DNA of 33,124 nt from Deltaproteobacteria bacterium. Its GTDB lineage: Bacteria; Myxococcota_A; Bradymonadia; REDH01. Positions 18,471 through 25,549 of the stretch are shown piece after piece; within the stretch, counting starts at the first letter, position 1; each line of letters begins with the position of its first letter. The DNA lies in the NCBI GenBank assembly GCA_007693585.1, contig REDH01000142.1, forward strand, positions 1 through 33,124. The letters run 5' to 3'. A program made the position numbers and the translations under genes. The notes under the pieces were generated by a model. It did no database searches and was not told where the DNA came from. It was given only the letters and a program-made list of their open reading frames with translations.

Positions 18471-18877
18471 CGGGAGTTCCGGGCCAGGGGAAGGAGGGGA
18501 AGGTAGCGACGGCGACGGCCGCGCGGGCGAACCCGCCCGCGGGCGCCGATGAGCGGACGCGAGCCGGGATGTAGCCACGACTCCCCCCGGGCGCCACCCG
18601 TTCCGTGCCGATCCCCGGGTGCACGCGCCGCGAACCGACGCCCCCGTGGCAAGAAACCCTTTCCCGTGGGCTGTCCCTGTGCTACACAGCGCGCCCCTGC
18701 CGATGGTGGCGTTTCCGCCGCCCGCGTGGCGCGACAAACGCAACACACCGTCGGACAAGGACTTCGAGCGCACCCCGCGCGCGAAGAGCGCGTTCGTGAT
18801 CCTCGCCGCCCCGGCACCCCGTGGGGAGCTGCAGGCGCCCGTTTCCTTTCTCGGTACCTTCACCGGAGTTCCCAGGC
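18471..18877. other. Intergenic region with rpsD leader
   Basis: This gap of 407 bases between the divergent J-domain gene and rpsD has no convincing gene. It holds the rpsD promoter at 18660-18688 and a leader of about 190 bases, which is long enough for the translational control that S4 exerts on its own mRNA in other bacteria. I did not resolve a specific pseudoknot. The left part (18471-18600) is GC-rich without a clear promoter for the minus-strand operon. Confidence 0.4.
18660..18688 (+). promoter_or_regulatory. Predicted rpsD promoter
   Basis: TTTCCC (18660-18665) and TACACA (18683-18688) are separated by 17 bases, with TGTGC directly before the -10, like an extended -10. It is followed by a 5' leader of about 185 bases to the rpsD ATG. 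The -35 match is moderate. Confidence 0.5.
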
Positions 18878-19492
18878 ATGTCCCGCTACACCGGCCCCCG
18901 CGTCAAGAAGATGCGCGCCCTCGGCGTCAACCTTCCCGGCCTGTCCCGCAAGACCCTCGATCGTCGCCCCTACCCGCCCGGGCAGCACGGGCAGAACCGG
19001 CGCCGCAAGAAGTCCGACTACGGTCGGCAGCTCACCGAGAAGCAGAAGCTTCGACTGAACTACGGCCTCGGCGAGCGGCAGTTCCGCCGGCTCGTGGCCG
19101 ACGCGCGAAGCGCCAAGCTCGCCACCGGCCGCAAGCTCCTCGAGCTCCTCGAGCGCCGGCTGGACAACGTCGTCTTCCGGGCCGGCTTCGCACCGACGAT
19201 TCCCGCCGCGCGACAGCTCATCAACCACGGGCACATCCTCGTGAACGGCCGTCGCGTCGACATCGCCTCCTACCGCGTGCGGATCGGCGACGTCATCGCC
19301 CCCCGCGAGAAGAGCCGATCGCTCCAGGTCATCACCTCCTCCCTCGAGGAACTGTCCCTGCTGCGCCCCGACTGGCTCGAGTACAACGCCGGCAACCAGA
19401 CCGCCATCGTGCGCAGCCTCCCCGAAGCGGAATCCGTCCCCTTCGAGATCGAGGTCCAGCTCGTCGTCGAGTACTACTCCAAGCGAATGTGA
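18878..19492 (+). CDS. rpsD: Ribosomal protein S4
   Basis: Small-subunit primary assembly protein that binds 16S rRNA. It has 204 residues, the usual length. The N-terminal part (MSRYTGPRVKKMRALGVNLP, PYPPGQHGQNRRRKKSDYG) is of the form without zinc-binding Cys. The S4 RNA-binding domain is about 92-155: RRLDNVVFRAGFAPTIPAAR, HGHILVNGRRVDI. The ATG at 18878 gives the conserved start and has GGAG 11 bases upstream. The gene stands alone rather than in the alpha operon with rpsM, rpsK and rpoA. A strong hairpin follows at 19531. Autoregulation through the long leader is likely but inferred. Confidence 0.97.
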   Translation: MSRYTGPRVKKMRALGVNLPGLSRKTLDRRPYPPGQHGQNRRRKKSDYGRQLTEKQKLRLNYGLGERQFRRLVADARSAKLATGRKLLELLERRLDNVVFRAGFAPTIPAARQLINHGHILVNGRRVDIASYRVRIGDVIAPREKSRSLQVITSSLEELSLLRPDWLEYNAGNQTAIVRSLPEAESVPFEIEVQLVVEYYSKRM

Positions 19493-19530
19493 GCCCGCCG
19501 GGCCCCGGCCCGTCACCAACCCGGCTCAAG

Positions 19531-19572
19531 CGGGCCGTGCCTCCCACCGGACGCACGGCCCGTTCGCGTTTC
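19531..19572 (+). terminator. Terminator hairpin after rpsD
   Basis: CGGGCCGTGC (19531-19540) and GCACGGCCCG (19553-19562) form a perfect 10-base stem with a 12-base loop, 38 bases past the rpsD stop. TTCGCGTTT follows, a short T-rich tail. This is the strongest hairpin terminator candidate in the window. Confidence 0.7.
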
Positions 19573-19665
19573 GCGCAAGGAGCCTCCTCGCCCCAGCCGG
19601 CGCGGCGGGCCGCTGCGCAACCCCCACCGATGAGCCCGAATGTCCGCAGGGGGGCCGACGACCCC

Positions 19666-20025
19666 TCAGCCCATCATGCGCGGCAACAGCAGCAGGAACA
19701 CCGCGGCCAGCAGCAGGTACACCAGCCGCAGCCAGGTGGCCCGGAGCTGAAGCTGGCGCAGGTTGTCCCGGATGAGGTCCATCCGGTCCTGATCCTCCGC
19801 ACCCTCCACCCGCGGCCAGACCGCCGGCGCCGTGGACCGCGGCAGCACGAGCAGCGAGACCACGATCAGCACGATGACCACGAGCATCGAAAGGTCATCC
19901 TGCAGGGTGCCCGCGTTGGCGAACACCACCGACACCAGCCCGAACACCGCGAACGCCGCCATGCTCCCGATGAAGCGCTGCTGAATCGCCTGCTGGTGTC
20001 TCTCCAGCTTCTCGATGGGTTCCAC
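19666..20025 (-). CDS. Small membrane protein, last gene of sigma-factor operon
   Basis: A 119-residue integral membrane protein of unknown family. Three hydrophobic segments are seen: about 20-38, 46-63 and 98-117. A charged loop (ERVEGAEDQDRMDLIRDNLR-like, about 72-90) lies between the second and third. The N-terminal 18 residues are polar (MEPIEKLERHQQAIQQRF) and probably cytoplasmic. The start is GTG (20023-20025) with a full GGAGG six bases upstream. It lies 36 bases after the anti-sigma stop, so it is likely in the same operon and may act with the sigma system at the membrane. Confidence 0.82.
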   Translation of the reverse strand: MEPIEKLERHQQAIQQRFIGSMAAFAVFGLVSVVFANAGTLQDDLSMLVVIVLIVVSLLVLPRSTAPAVWPRVEGAEDQDRMDLIRDNLRQLQLRATWLRLVYLLLAAVFLLLLPRMMG

Positions 20026-20061
20026 GTCAGTCCTCCCGTCCTGCAGATTCTTCCATCGGCC

Positions 20062-20826
20062 TCACGGCCGCTCGTCGATGACCACACGTATGGTCACCCG
20101 CGCCGCGGCGCCATCGACCTCCACACGTGAACGCTCCACGGGACCCAGATCCTCGAGGCGCTGGAGCGCGGCACCGAGCTGGGCCCGCTCCACCGCAACC
20201 TCGACCACCGCCCCGCCGTCGGCGGGCTCCGCGGCACGCACCGCCCGCGCACCGAACCGTCGTCGCAGCTCCGCTTCGATCGCCGCAGACTCGCCGGTGG
20301 CGCGCACGCTGTACCGGTACTCGATGCGCCGGTGCGCCGGTCCAGGTCGGGACGGCGGGGCCGGCTCCACCGTCGGCGGCAGACGCGAACGGGACGCGTC
20401 GGGCGGCGTGGGGTCGTCCTCGAGCGGTGCCGGCGCCTCGTCCGGTGCGTCCTCGGCCGCCGGCGGCTCGAGCAGGATCTCCAGACGGCCCGGGGAGAGG
20501 AGGAAGGCGATCAGCGCCAGCACGATCAGCGCCGCGAGCGGGATGGCCACCTGCGACAGCCGCTCCCGCCGCTGCTCCGCCCCGAAGTACCGACCCCTTG
20601 ACCGGCGACGGATGCGCCGCTGCACCGCGCGGTCGAAGTCCTCCGGGGGCTCCGGCTCCGGCAGCGACGCAAACAGCGCCACCGTCTCCCGCAGCCCGTC
20701 GAGCTCCTCGCGCAGCTCGGGCCGCGCCTCGAGCTGCGCCTCCAGGGCCGCGCGCTCCCCATCGTCGAGCTCGCCCTCCAGATAGGCGTTCAGGCGGGCG
20801 AGATCCCTGTCGTCGATCCTGCTCAT
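20062..20826 (-). CDS. Anti-sigma factor, membrane-anchored
   Basis: A 254-residue protein that most likely holds the adjacent sigma factor inactive. The N-terminal cytoplasmic region (about 1-55) has the anti-sigma helical pattern (LARLNAYLEGELDDGERAAL, LREELDGLRETVALF) but no HxxxCxxC zinc site. A single membrane segment (about 93-111) is followed by an acidic/Pro-rich linker (about 118-165) and a C-terminal domain with RYSVRATGESAAIEAELRR and ERSRVEVDGAAARVTIRVV, probably periplasmic. The ATG overlaps the sigma stop by four bases (ATGA), a usual arrangement for such pairs. Role is inferred from pairing and layout. Confidence 0.85.
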   Translation of the reverse strand: MSRIDDRDLARLNAYLEGELDDGERAALEAQLEARPELREELDGLRETVALFASLPEPEPPEDFDRAVQRRIRRRSRGRYFGAEQRRERLSQVAIPLAALIVLALIAFLLSPGRLEILLEPPAAEDAPDEAPAPLEDDPTPPDASRSRLPPTVEPAPPSRPGPAHRRIEYRYSVRATGESAAIEAELRRRFGARAVRAAEPADGGAVVEVAVERAQLGAALQRLEDLGPVERSRVEVDGAAARVTIRVVIDERP

Positions 20827-21422
20827 GAGCGTCTCCGATCGGCGTAGCGGGACTGGATGAAGGACTTGAGCTGCGCCCGGGCACGAAAGAGCCGGCTCTT
20901 CACCGTCCCCTCGGCGACCTCCAGCACCTCGCTGATCGCCTGGTAGCTCAGATGGTCCATGTCCCGAAGCACGATGACCACGCGGTGCTCCTCGTCGAGC
21001 TCCAGAAGCCCGGCCCGGATGATCGTCTCGAGCTCGTTGCCCTCGGCCTGCTGGTCCGGGCGGGGGTGCGACGCGCCCGCCGCCTCGACGAGGCGCCCCT
21101 CCTCGGTGTCCTCGAGAGGCTGGCGGCTGCGGGCGTGACGCCGGGACAGGTACTTGATGCGGTTGCGGCAGTGGTTGGCCGTGATCCGGAGGATCCAGGT
21201 GTCCAGCCGGCTCTCGCCCCGAAACCCGTCGATCGCCTTGAACAGGCTGACGAAGACCTCCTGGGCGACGTCCTCGGCCTCCTCCCGATGACCCATCATC
21301 CGGTACGAAAGCCCGTACACACGGTTGCGGTAGCGGGCGACCAGCTCGGCGAAGGCCGACTCGTCGCGCGCGCGCAGGCGCTCGATGAAGCGCTCGTCGT
21401 CCGGTGAGGCCCCGTCAGTCAT
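20823..21422 (-). CDS. ECF sigma factor, RpoE-like
   Basis: An alternative sigma-70 family factor of 199 residues. Region 2 (about 22-92) has the core-binding helix HREEAEDVAQEVFVSLFKAI and promoter-melting WILRITANHCRNRIK; region 4 (about 130-185) has LDEEHRVVIVLRDMDHLSYQ and VAEGTVKSRLFRARAQL, which reads the -35. There is no sigma region 3, as in ECF factors. The ATG at 21420-21422 lies inside the end of the DUF72 gene (8-base overlap) and the stop overlaps the anti-sigma start, so all are co-transcribed. Regulon unknown; an envelope-stress role would fit the membrane partner. Confidence 0.95.
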   Translation of the reverse strand: MTDGASPDDERFIERLRARDESAFAELVARYRNRVYGLSYRMMGHREEAEDVAQEVFVSLFKAIDGFRGESRLDTWILRITANHCRNRIKYLSRRHARSRQPLEDTEEGRLVEAAGASHPRPDQQAEGNELETIIRAGLLELDEEHRVVIVLRDMDHLSYQAISEVLEVAEGTVKSRLFRARAQLKSFIQSRYADRRRS

Positions 21423-22152
21423 CGCCTCCCTGGAGCGCGTCCCGCATCCCCTTCAGGCGCTCTGCCCAGAAGAACCGCTCCGCGCCGCGGAACACTGCGT
21501 GCACCGGCCCGTCGTGGTCCGCCGCAAAGTCCAGGAAGGCCTCGAGGTCGTCGTCACTGAACCGCCGGCGCCCTCCCCAGGGTCCGGTGAGCACGCAATA
21601 GGCGGGGCCCGGTGCGAGGGTCGGGAACTCCGCCTCGAGGAAGGGGTCCACCGCCAGCACGAGACCGAGCTCGGACGCCCAATCCTGTGCATCCTCCCGA
21701 TCCCAGAGGCCACCGGGAGTCCACACGCAAAGGAGGTCCACGTCCCCCACGATCTCCTCGAAGAATCGACGCATCGCGTCCCGGTTCCGGGTGCTGGGCG
21801 AGAACCCCACCGGCGAGCGGAAGTGCAGGCCGGCCGGGCGCAGGATGCGAAACTGCTTCGCAAAAACCGCCCACTGGGCCCGCATCTCGTCCGAGGACAC
21901 GAACAGCCCCCAGCGGTCGGCCGGAACCCCCTCGAGCCCCTCCAGCGGACGCTTCAGGTCCATCGGATCCGCCGTGAACCCCTGCCAGACCGTCAGCACG
22001 TGCCGGAACCCCTCCGGTGCGCGATCCCGCCAGCGCTGCAGCGTCGCCTCCCGCATCGGCGCCTGGTAGGACTCGTCGACCTCCATGAGCTCGACCGCAT
22101 GGGGATCCACGCGGGGGACGACAGGCTGGCTGGAACAACCGATGATCAGCAT
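21415..22152 (-). CDS. DUF72 (YecE-like) family protein
   Basis: A 245-residue cytosolic protein of the DUF72 family, a TIM-barrel-like group of uncertain function. Family pattern seen: AVELMEVDESYQAPMREATL and RWRDRAPEGFRHVLTV near the N-terminus, LRPAGLHFRSPVGFSPS mid-protein, and VDLLCVWTPGGLWDREDA. The N-terminus is shorter than many members (the family's GxxGW region is reduced to MLIIGCSS). The ATG at 22150-22152 lacks a clear ribosome binding site, so the start is moderately sure. The 3' end overlaps the sigma factor gene by eight bases, which makes it the head of the sigma/anti-sigma operon. Confidence 0.82.
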   Translation of the reverse strand: MLIIGCSSQPVVPRVDPHAVELMEVDESYQAPMREATLQRWRDRAPEGFRHVLTVWQGFTADPMDLKRPLEGLEGVPADRWGLFVSSDEMRAQWAVFAKQFRILRPAGLHFRSPVGFSPSTRNRDAMRRFFEEIVGDVDLLCVWTPGGLWDREDAQDWASELGLVLAVDPFLEAEFPTLAPGPAYCVLTGPWGGRRRFSDDDLEAFLDFAADHDGPVHAVFRGAERFFWAERLKGMRDALQGGDD

Positions 22153-22474
22153 GGGAAACCGGGTCGAGTGGGGAAGGGGGGCGCCTCGCCGCGACTCCGC
22201 GTAGCCCGGCGCAGGCCGGACGGCAAGGGCACACCACCGCCGAAGGCGCGCCATGGACTCCTCTGAAGGGACACCGCCCGCATCGAGCGGTTCCCACGCC
22301 ACGGCCCACCGCCATCCGGGAGCCCATCCCGCGCCCCACACCCCTGCATGCCACCGGGCAACCACCTTCGCGACCACGCCGGAGCGGCACGGCGCACCGC
22401 TTGACACCCGCCCGCCCCGGGGACACCATCCCGCGGGCCGCTGGCCCCCCGCACCCCTCGACCGCACGGAGCGC
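22153..22474. other. Intergenic region between divergent DUF72 and HMG-CoA lyase genes
   Basis: This 322-base gap has no gene I can support. It holds the lyase promoter candidate at 22401-22429. On the minus strand I find no clear promoter for the DUF72-sigma operon; it may use an ECF-type promoter, which could allow self-activation. Confidence 0.4.
22401..22429 (+). promoter_or_regulatory. Predicted promoter for HMG-CoA lyase operon
   Basis: A perfect -35 TTGACA (22401-22406) is followed after 17 bases by CACCAT (22424-22429), which matches three of six -10 positions. Transcription would begin about 40 bases before the lyase ATG. Confidence 0.45.
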
Positions 22475-23410
22475 ATGGCCGACAGCGAGGGCACGACCCC
22501 CACCACATCGACCCCGAACTCCATCCGCATCGTCGAGGTCGGACCGCGCGACGGCCTCCAGAACGAACGCGTACGGCTCAACCCGGCCGAACGCATCCGG
22601 CTCATCGAACGACTCGTCGACGCCGGAGTGCGCGAGGTCGAGGTCGGCAGCTTCGTCCACCCGCGATGGATCCCCCAGATGGCCGGCACCGACGAAGTGC
22701 TCCGCGGACTCCACCGCCAGGAAGGCGTCGCCTACTGGGCCCTCGTCCCCAACCGGCGCGGGCTCGACAACGCCCTCGAGGCCGGCGCCGAACACGTCGC
22801 CGTCTTCGTCTCCTCCAGCGAAACCCACAACCGACGCAACCTCAACCGCAGCATCGACGAGAGCATCGAGAACGTCCGCGAGGTCGTCTCCGACGCCCGA
22901 CAGGAGGGACTCACCGTCCGCGGATACATCTCCACCGTCTTCGGATGCCCCTGGGAAGGCGACATCGACTTCGACCGCGTCCTCGACATCGCCCGCGAAC
23001 TCTTCGCCATGGGCGTCGCCGAAATCAGCTTCGGCGACACCACCGGCATGGGCACCCCCTACCAGGTGCGCGACGGCATGACCCGCGCACTCGACGCCTT
23101 CGGCCCCGAACGCGTCGCACTCCACCTGCATGACACCCGCGGACTCGCCGTCGCCAACGCCCTCCTCGCCGTCGAGGCCGGCGTCACCACCCTCGACGCC
23201 TCCATCGGCGGCATGGGCGGATGCCCCTACGCCGCAGGCGCCTCCGGAAACGTCGGCACCGAAGACCTCGTCCACCTCCTCCACGCCACCGGACGCAACA
23301 CCGGCATCCGACTCGAGGACCTCCTCGGCATCAGCCGCTCCCTCGAGGACGAGCACGGCGCCACCCTCCGCTCACGATACCACGCCTACAGCCGCGCCGG
23401 TCACTCCTGA
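22475..23410 (+). CDS. mvaB: Hydroxymethylglutaryl-CoA lyase
   Basis: Splits 3-hydroxy-3-methylglutaryl-CoA into acetyl-CoA and acetoacetate, the last step of leucine breakdown. It has 311 residues, typical for the bacterial enzyme. The N-terminal motif is VEVGPRDGLQNE with the catalytic Arg/Asp; the family signature GGMGGCPYAAGASGNVGTED carries the active Cys in GGCPYA; metal ligands are expected in VALHLHDTRGLAVANAL. ATG 22475 gives a short extension before the motif; GGAG lies three bases upstream, which is close. It is followed 14 bases later by an enoyl-CoA hydratase, which supports a leucine/isovaleryl-CoA pathway. The other genes of that pathway are not in the window. Confidence 0.95.
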   Translation: MADSEGTTPTTSTPNSIRIVEVGPRDGLQNERVRLNPAERIRLIERLVDAGVREVEVGSFVHPRWIPQMAGTDEVLRGLHRQEGVAYWALVPNRRGLDNALEAGAEHVAVFVSSSETHNRRNLNRSIDESIENVREVVSDARQEGLTVRGYISTVFGCPWEGDIDFDRVLDIARELFAMGVAEISFGDTTGMGTPYQVRDGMTRALDAFGPERVALHLHDTRGLAVANALLAVEAGVTTLDASIGGMGGCPYAAGASGNVGTEDLVHLLHATGRNTGIRLEDLLGISRSLEDEHGATLRSRYHAYSRAGHS

Positions 23411-24222: not shown

Positions 24223-24364
24223 CCCCGCCAGGCCTCCCACAAGGCACAAGCCCCTTGCACCCCCCGGACAACACGGCGATCATCCCCCCGTGGCGTCCCC
24301 CACTGGCGTGCGAACACCCCGCCCCACAGGACGTCCCCCCCCTGCCCCCGACCCACGGCGTCCC

Positions 24365-25549
24365 ATGTCCTCGGGCGACCCCCAGCCCCCACCGACCGAA
24401 GCGCCCGACTCCGGGAACACGGGACACGTGCGGGAACACGCACACACCCGTGACGTCCTCGCCGAAGCCCCCGCCGCCGAACAACCCTTCGACCGCGAAC
24501 ACGACGCCACCGAACTCATCCGCGGCGACGGACACCCCGCCCCCCGCGACACCGCAGACAGCCGACACGACGCCGAATTCGTCCTCGGCGGCACCGTCCC
24601 CCGAAACGAACCCTCCCCCCGCGTCCGCGAACGCGCCGAAGACCTCTACCTGCGCCTCGAATCCCGCGTCTACGGACCCATCGCCATGGGCGAACTCGAG
24701 AGCCTCCTCTCCTCCGGACTCCTCACCGGATACGAGACCATCTCCGGCGACCTCCGAAAGTGGACCCCCCTGGCCTACCACCCCAGGATGATCGCCTCCC
24801 GCGACTCCGACCCCGAAGCCACCCACCGCATCCTCGAACAGTACAGCGACCTCCCCGCACCCTCCGCCGCCGCCGACTCCGTCCCCACCAGCAGCCTCGC
24901 CGCACTCCTCGACGAGAAGCCCGGAGCTCCCGCCGCAGGCATCCTCCACAGACCATCCCGCATCGGCTCACGACCCGCCACCGGACCCAACCGGCCCATC
25001 ACAGGCCGACAGCGCGTACCCCAACCCGACGAACGCGACGCCACCCCCGCATCCACACCGCCCGGCGACACGCCCGCACTCCACCCGACCGACGACGCCA
25101 CCCCGAACTCCGCACCCGACACACCCCACCCTCCCGTGGAACCCCCGCACACCGCGTCGACCTCCCCACCCCAGAACCACGACTCCAGCCCCCACGACGC
25201 ACATCCCCTCCCGGACCTCGACGAGCACGCCGCCGAGACCGCACCCATGCCCGCGCAGACCCGCGAATCCCTCGCCGCCCAAGGCCGCGACGAGAACGAC
25301 GACGCGATCCCCCCCCCGGACGAAACCGCGCGACATCCCGCCTTCGCCACCCCGCTCGCGCACGACATGGCGCACCACGACGCCTCCCCCGGAGACGACA
25401 CCGCCCCGGACAGCCTCGACCCGCCCCTGGACCCCCAGGCCGCCGCCGGGCCCCGCTCCGCCTCCGGCGCCCTGCGCACCGCCGCCCTCGCACTCTTCGC
25501 CGGCGGCATCGTCGTCATCGCCACCCTCCTGTGGCTCTCCTCCTGCTGA
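24365..25549 (+). CDS. GYF-domain-like protein with C-terminal membrane anchor
   Basis: A 394-residue protein of unknown role. A GYF_2-like domain lies about 90-145: DLYLRLESRVYGPIAMGELE, then TGYETISGDLRKWTPL; such domains bind proline-rich peptides. The central region (about 200-365) is a low-complexity, Pro/Asp/His/Thr-rich linker. The protein ends in one hydrophobic segment (LALFAGGIVVIATLLWLSSC), so it is tail-anchored with the GYF domain in the cytoplasm. The start is uncertain: ATG 24365 is chosen as the last ATG before acidic sequence; an ATG at 24290 adds 25 residues rich in Pro/Arg. The amidohydrolase gene starts 14 bases after its stop. Confidence 0.8.
   Translation: MSSGDPQPPPTEAPDSGNTGHVREHAHTRDVLAEAPAAEQPFDREHDATELIRGDGHPAPRDTADSRHDAEFVLGGTVPRNEPSPRVRERAEDLYLRLESRVYGPIAMGELESLLSSGLLTGYETISGDLRKWTPLAYHPRMIASRDSDPEATHRILEQYSDLPAPSAAADSVPTSSLAALLDEKPGAPAAGILHRPSRIGSRPATGPNRPITGRQRVPQPDERDATPASTPPGDTPALHPTDDATPNSAPDTPHPPVEPPHTASTSPPQNHDSSPHDAHPLPDLDEHAAETAPMPAQTRESLAAQGRDENDDAIPPPDETARHPAFATPLAHDMAHHDASPGDDTAPDSLDPPLDPQAAAGPRSASGALRTAALALFAGGIVVIATLLWLSSC

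Follow-up and report, generated by a model that had tools for sequence, protein, structure and literature searches.

Among the described extracytoplasmic function (ECF) sigma factors, those closest to the system analyzed here are SigW, which is paired with the class I anti-sigma factor RsiW (ASDI), and CarQ and DdvS of Myxococcus xanthus. According to PMC12288465, CarQ/CarR and DdvS also combine an ECF sigma factor with a membrane anti-sigma factor, and CarQ activates its own operon as well; they belong to the same wider bacterial group as the genome studied here and, compared by description rather than by sequence, differ from our system in their targets, i.e., carotenoid genes and an antiphage island. 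As reported in PMC3169522, GltG of the Myxococcus Glt-Agl machinery contacts the motor protein AglR in two-hybrid assays and is proposed to transmit its work, and the Glt/Agl core complex is also present in bacteria without documented gliding, in which its function is open. Here, we computationally analyzed contig REDH01000142.1 (33,124 nucleotides, referred to as the window) of a Deltaproteobacteria bacterium of the class Bradymonadia (GCA_007693585.1; 4.97-Mb assembly, 223 contigs), focusing on an operon-like unit that encodes, in this order on the minus strand, a DUF72-like protein, an ECF sigma factor, an anti-sigma factor, and a three-span membrane protein (Table 1). The principal new finding is a predicted set of GltG-family target genes, which appears to be a more useful clue than the DUF72-like protein. 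With a probability of roughly 0.7, we take the unit to be the form that an autoregulated ECF switch for envelope complexes of the Glt/Agl type has acquired in the window's family; the DUF72-like protein would be a passenger or a re-purposed partner.

The sigma factor matches the Pfam families Sigma70_r2 (63.3 bits) and Sigma70_r4_2 (53.1 bits), both above cut-off, as well as the NCBIfam sigma70-ECF model (115 bits versus a cut-off of 42.9), and with regions 2 and 4 in about 200 residues it has the architecture expected of an ECF sigma factor. It resembles SigW in carrying these two regions in 199 residues and in having the SigW model as its best NCBIfam match (135 bits), although this score lies under the cut-off of 209. 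The system further differs from SigW/RsiW in that the anti-sigma factor, of which the modeled anti-sigma domain resembles RsiW (5wuq), is zinc-free and has a separate periplasmic domain, and in that GltG-family genes are the predicted targets.

At 11/18 sigma loci outside the window's family, GGAAC-N16/17-TGTC was found upstream of the sigma gene, and GGAAC followed at the same spacing by GTC, with any base before GTC, was found at 16/18. The putative promoter upstream of the DUF72-like gene in the window reached 11.8 bits with the weight matrix; it is the top minus-strand site of the window, and its score was reached at 9 of 66,184 window positions, itself included. Exact matches to the motif numbered 77 in the window's genome versus 36 for the reversed control. 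Among the 30 of these 77 loose sites that were checked, 28 were within genes as defined by a rough caller, including the window's own site, which falls in a probably over-long gene on the opposite strand, while 2 were intergenic. Because the loose pattern is mostly in coding DNA, we used the strict form GGAACTT-N14-TGTC to search for targets. A separate observation concerns an intergenic loose site with a 17-base spacer (L274; contig 34 of the window's genome, 1671-1696), which lies 326 nucleotides upstream of a peroxiredoxin-like gene.

The strict pattern identified 72 sites in 14 genomes (70 in 13 genomes and 2 in the window's genome; G, L, f, and g numbers denote genomes, loci, families, and genera, respectively). 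Seventeen of the 72 sites precede a GltG-family gene, compared with an expectation of 0.017 for a 900-nucleotide window or 0.042 for the 2.2 kb reached by the script; one of the 17 (G047:533469) is inside an open frame but upstream of the match. Four further sites are the sigma factor's own. When the −10 element was scrambled, 16 sites were found across these 14 genomes (reversed form of the scrambled pattern: 29), and no GltG gene among those listed was near any of the 16. Similarly, in 14 genomes without a close sigma factor, the strict pattern gave 11 sites versus 17 for the controls, and by eye none of the 11 was near a GltG gene among those listed. Both strict sites found in the window's genome are located upstream of GltG-like genes, one of which codes for P0005, and both products contain the AgmX/PglI C-terminal domain (109 and 117 bits versus a cut-off of 40). 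This domain and the FHA-like stretch in the long form of the predicted targets are shared with GltG/PglI of the Myxococcus Glt-Agl system (PMC3169522). In contrast to that system, there are several paralogues per genome.

We also scored the DNA upstream of the best P0005 match with a weight matrix derived exclusively from sigma promoters. Loci were available for 30 of 54 genomes, and in one of the 30 the upstream DNA was missing. Sites of at least 14 bits were present in 16/29 genomes, compared with 1/29 on the reverse strand and 3/580 shuffles. A site was found in 16/23 genomes that have the sigma factor (E 2.3e-43 or better) and in 0/6 of those that lack it. Fisher's test gives p 0.004; merging the four g2 genomes changes this value to 0.0009, and merging genus g9 in addition changes it to 0.007. 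Because the genomes are related, the p values are a guide only. In the parts of the open-licence literature searched, we found no description of a GltG regulon under an ECF sigma factor. As an additional observation, in G016 (L297, about 1577-1867) and G047 (L345, minus strand) the site and a long GltG-family gene are separated by the gene for a short protein that begins with a signal-peptide-like stretch; by eye, its position is like that of GltF in Myxococcus.

Several points weigh against this assignment. First, neither GltG-family genes nor the sigma factor's own genes account for 51 of the 72 strict sites, and the 13 genomes contain only twice as many strict sites as matches to the reversed pattern (70 versus 35), with 15 versus 15 in G027. 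Second, the GltG family was selected after the first matches had been inspected, so the enrichment is after the fact, and both targets in the window's genome score below the cut-off of 650 of the GltG equivalog NF033760 (139 and 308 bits). Third, in 7 of the 23 sigma-bearing genomes, no site upstream of the best GltG match reaches 14 bits; four of the seven are those of genus g2, where a GltG paralogue has a site in G001 and G003. Fourth, the sigma promoter sites were chosen by eye, with 1/18 not fitting. Finally, the evidence for a promoter before the DUF72-like gene in the window is moderate: in genus g2 (G001, G003, G004, and G005), a 20.6-bit site is at the DUF72/sigma junction, and because it is downstream of the DUF72 gene, this gene would be outside the transcript starting there; in G002, nothing above 7.7 bits was found near the operon. 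The idea that the window promoter proves the DUF72-like gene to be part of the regulon was weakened by these two observations and by eight window positions that score equally well or better. Among DUF72 relatives outside the family, upstream sites of at least 11.8 bits were found in 3/22, which is not convincing.

The sites before GltG genes might also belong to a different ECF sigma factor, in which case the window's sigma factor would have another regulon. First-look counts gave many ECF candidates per class genome, and GGAAC is a common −35 element of ECF sigma factors, so sites could be shared; the latter point also counts against our assignment. Nevertheless, an identical site precedes the window-type sigma gene itself, and a site before the best GltG match was found only where this sigma factor is present (16/23 versus 0/6). 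We regard a different ECF sigma factor as unlikely and favor the predicted GltG-family regulon of the window's sigma factor.

Turning to the operon itself, the DUF72 and sigma genes overlap by 8 nucleotides, the sigma and anti-sigma genes overlap by 4 nucleotides, and a gap of 36 nucleotides separates the anti-sigma gene from that of the membrane protein. A GGGAGG-like ribosome site, read from the sequence, is located upstream of the sigma start within the 3' end of the DUF72-like gene. Coordinates, domains, and hydropathy agree with the unit of four genes proposed in an initial annotation made from the DNA alone, including its 8-, 4-, and 36-base junctions, and support that the four genes form an operon-like unit. 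A scan of 19480-22600 gave no sigma-70 promoter and one terminator-like site versus 1.1 expected. The membrane protein has predicted spans at residues 18-36, 44-62, and 96-114, and its best Pfam match is DUF2721 (19 bits, under the cut-off of 28.3). Convergent with the operon, the window contains a gene named by eye as ribosomal protein S4-like, and a member of the same cluster (c21) is also present beyond the operon in G002.

Table 1. Features of the operon, its surroundings, and the predicted targets. Positions without a contig or locus refer to the window.
Feature	Position	Strand	Basis or remarks
DUF72-like protein, 245 residues; divergent, proposed DUF72 active-site residues absent	21415..22152	(-)	Pfam, profile-profile match, residue mapping
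ECF sigma factor, 199 residues	20823..21422	(-)	Pfam, NCBIfam; best matches 43-56% identity in 30 other genomes
Anti-sigma factor, 254 residues: zinc-free anti-sigma domain, one span, C-terminal periplasmic domain	20062..20826	(-)	NCBIfam below cut-off, AlphaFold2/Foldseek, homologues adjoining sigma
Predicted anti-sigma periplasmic domain, residues 172-251, beta-alpha-beta-beta-alpha-beta order	20074..20313	(-)	AlphaFold2 model
Three-span membrane protein, 119 residues, GTG start	19666..20025	(-)	Hydropathy; homologues in 20/54 genomes, adjoining this sigma in the window's family only
Putative sigma-type promoter GGAAC-N16-TGTC, 3' end 117 nucleotides upstream of the DUF72 start	22270..22294	(-)	Exact pattern match; 11.8 bits
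Strict site before GltG-like gene P0005, 428 residues	contig 17, 61678		Window's genome
Strict site before GltG-like gene, 573 residues with FHA-like stretch	contig 83, 5564		Window's genome
Ribosomal protein S4-like gene	18821-19492	(+)	Named by eye
419-residue protein with GYF-like stretch and C-terminal span	24290-25549	(+)	Stretch and span read by eye
Acidic-tailed DUF72 relatives	L004:1282-2199, L010:1483-2313, L016:1486-2337		
Oxidoreductase-cluster genes	L133:10408-11601, L132:7161-8456, L134:341-1636, L136:646-1941		Only the L133 member was scanned against families

The anti-sigma factor scores under the cut-offs of both Pfam zf-HC2 (20.9 versus 22.2 bits) and the NCBIfam antisigma model (55.2 versus 100 bits), and hydropathy predicts one span at residues 93-111. 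An AlphaFold2 model based on a nine-row alignment (mean predicted local distance difference test score [pLDDT] 72, predicted template modeling score [pTM] 0.36) has a helical anti-sigma domain that is confidently predicted, then a long helix in the membrane and, past the span, a C-terminal domain. In the latter, pLDDT by blocks is 67-86, but 47 at residues 231-240, and the domain is covered by two alignment rows only. The top Foldseek matches of the model were to RsiW in the SigW-RsiW complex (5wuq; probability 1.00, E 0.019), while nothing was found at E 0.001. Thus, the modeled fold, the single span, and the gene adjoining that of the sigma factor are those of a class I, RsiW-like membrane anti-sigma factor. 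The HxxxCxxC motif that characterizes zinc-containing anti-sigma (ZAS) domains is absent, and both the missing zinc site and the periplasmic domain had been correctly noted in the initial annotation. The motif is also absent from the sampled rows of families f1, f2, f5, and f7, and it is present in the f4 row and in L190, L192, L198, L200, and L201; an RSxGRFF-like stretch immediately upstream of the span is found in most sampled relatives. We abandoned the loss of the zinc site as a remarkable feature, as the alignment shows it to be common among relatives. Nor is a C-terminal domain peculiar to the window operon, as the f7 and f4 rows and L201 have one too; the four f5 rows lack it.

To follow the gene order, we sampled the window's family with the window's genome (G000) and G001-G005, which together represent three genera. 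The order of the four genes is kept in 6/6 genomes, with the copy in G004 split across two contigs. Outside the family, a DUF72 relative was beside the sigma gene in 0/25 class genomes (sigma at least 43% identical, E 2.3e-43 or better; tables read by eye), a count limited by several short contigs and by G006, which has no DUF72 match at all. Moreover, no DUF72 relative was found within flanks of up to 8 kb among the 80 named sigma loci listed, which are mostly those of more distant sigma factors. Of the 33 genomes with an anti-sigma match (out of 54), 32 have the sigma and anti-sigma genes side by side (two tables read by eye), and homologues of the three-span protein outside the family do not adjoin this sigma gene. 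Given the order in 6/6 genomes within and the count of 0/25 outside the family, we take the sigma/anti-sigma pair as the older unit and the DUF72-like and membrane proteins as family-specific additions. The four-gene order is therefore retained in other genomes as far as the window's family extends and not beyond it. We found no link between DUF72 and a sigma factor in the titles and abstracts of the open-licence literature, in line with the initial remark that the combination is unfamiliar.

The DUF72-like protein matches Pfam DUF72 (PF01904) partially (31.4 bits versus a cut-off of 25.3; profile positions 19-141 of 217), with no additional support from NCBIfam, while comparison of its family with canonical DUF72 proteins of the same phylum by hhalign supports full-length homology (97.7%, E 1.3e-12, 209 columns). 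The divergent alignment had 19 rows, i.e., the window protein and 18 of 29 extracted relatives (61/95 genomes matched overall), and the canonical set had 8 rows, all from the window's phylum. We mapped the residues corresponding to Lys72, His79, Gln114, and Arg145 of TM1631, placed by motif; according to PMC3828134, the phosphate/active site of TM1631 is a prediction. Each of the four residues is retained in 8/8 canonical rows. In the divergent rows, Lys and the Arg of EFRH are found in 0/19, Gln in 1/19, and His in 5/19, and in the window protein all four residues are replaced. Instead, FxPSxxNR, WxPxGxW, and DP are conserved in the divergent family. Thus, relative to the DUF72 proteins TM1631/1VPQ and EF0366/1VPY, the window protein is a full-length but divergent homologue without the proposed active site, and its description as a DUF72 enzyme is not established. 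It is the single DUF72 protein of its genome. A single-sequence AlphaFold2 model, inspected for a TIM barrel, was of low confidence (mean pLDDT 43) and displayed alternating strands and helices only. In genus g2 and family f3, DUF72 relatives carry long acidic C-terminal tails, which the window's protein lacks.

These data bear on two alternatives for the DUF72-like protein. If it were a working enzyme and a true partner of the sigma factor, the operon would report on DUF72 biochemistry, e.g., the repair of DNA when the envelope is stressed or during oxidative stress. Retention of the neighborhood over three genera and the 8-nucleotide overlap with the sigma gene fit this idea, and canonical DUF72 is predicted to bind damaged DNA (PMC3828134) and is somewhat enriched in the vicinity of polB2, which encodes a DNA-damage polymerase (PMC11791011; PMC5720831, by contrast, concerns DUF721 and not DUF72). 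The replaced active-site residues and the predicted sigma targets, which are envelope genes, make it very improbable. Alternatively, the gene could be a bystander that was fixed by chance in the family and is transcribed by read-through without contributing to the switch. The sigma factor lacks an adjoining DUF72 in 25/25 genomes outside the family, the strong site in genus g2 is downstream of DUF72, and the DUF72 relative in f5 adjoins other genes, all of which favor a bystander; the persistence of adjacency and order over three genera despite changed outer flanks speaks against it. We give it somewhat less than an even chance. Most likely, the DUF72-like protein is co-made with the sigma factor either as a passenger or as a non-catalytic relative put to a new use, and we place most weight on this status.

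The initial annotation had suggested that the operon may give a clue to the function of DUF72. This proposal was not supported: the active-site Lys, Gln, and Arg are absent, and the sigma-type site in g2 is downstream of DUF72. After residue mapping, we dropped the idea that the operon could inform on DUF72 biochemistry: because its protein lacks the proposed active-site residues, the operon says little about the function of ordinary DUF72 proteins. The observation was a good one, its stated reason does not hold, and a different testable prediction follows from it.

Our preferred reading, the autoregulated ECF switch, would operate as follows. The anti-sigma factor, with its RsiW-like domain inside, one span, and the small domain outside, would hold the sigma factor until an envelope signal frees it, probably by proteolysis. 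The free sigma factor would read GGAAC-N16/17-TGTC, as suggested by the conserved sites, drive its own gene, and switch on GltG-family genes, which code for TonB-like proteins; in Glt/Agl complexes, such proteins connect the envelope with a motor in the inner membrane. Within the window's family, the unit would have gained the genes for the DUF72-like and three-span membrane proteins. A bolder version, which we think doubtful, holds that the ECF pair predates the split of several families of the class and controls the GltG-type motor core, with the DUF72-like protein lacking the active site serving as a cytoplasmic partner of the sigma factor.

Additional observations concern the surroundings of these loci. 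In 4/5 sister genomes, a gene of a cluster named from its G002 member as FAD/NAD(P)-dependent oxidoreductase lies downstream of the membrane-protein gene; it is not present after the window operon, and in G005 the contig ends at this point. In six f5 loci, a gene near the sigma/anti-sigma pair belongs to a cluster of which the G016 member is PBP4 (D-Ala-D-Ala carboxypeptidase), and in four of the six it is directly beside the pair on the same strand. G038 has a homologue of the three-span protein (L147:18481-18915) approximately 16 kb from the orthologous sigma gene. The 419-residue protein encoded approximately 2 kb from the operon gave no NCBIfam match, and a DUF72 relative in family f5 is near zinc-ribbon proteins with a similar GYF-like stretch (by eye).

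With respect to DUF72, the operon calls for caution, as it is unsuitable for inferring the function of ordinary DUF72 proteins. If the predicted regulon is true, an ECF switch that is dedicated to Glt/Agl-type complexes and acts through a shared promoter would reveal when these complexes are made, and the role of the Glt/Agl core in bacteria without documented gliding would become directly testable.

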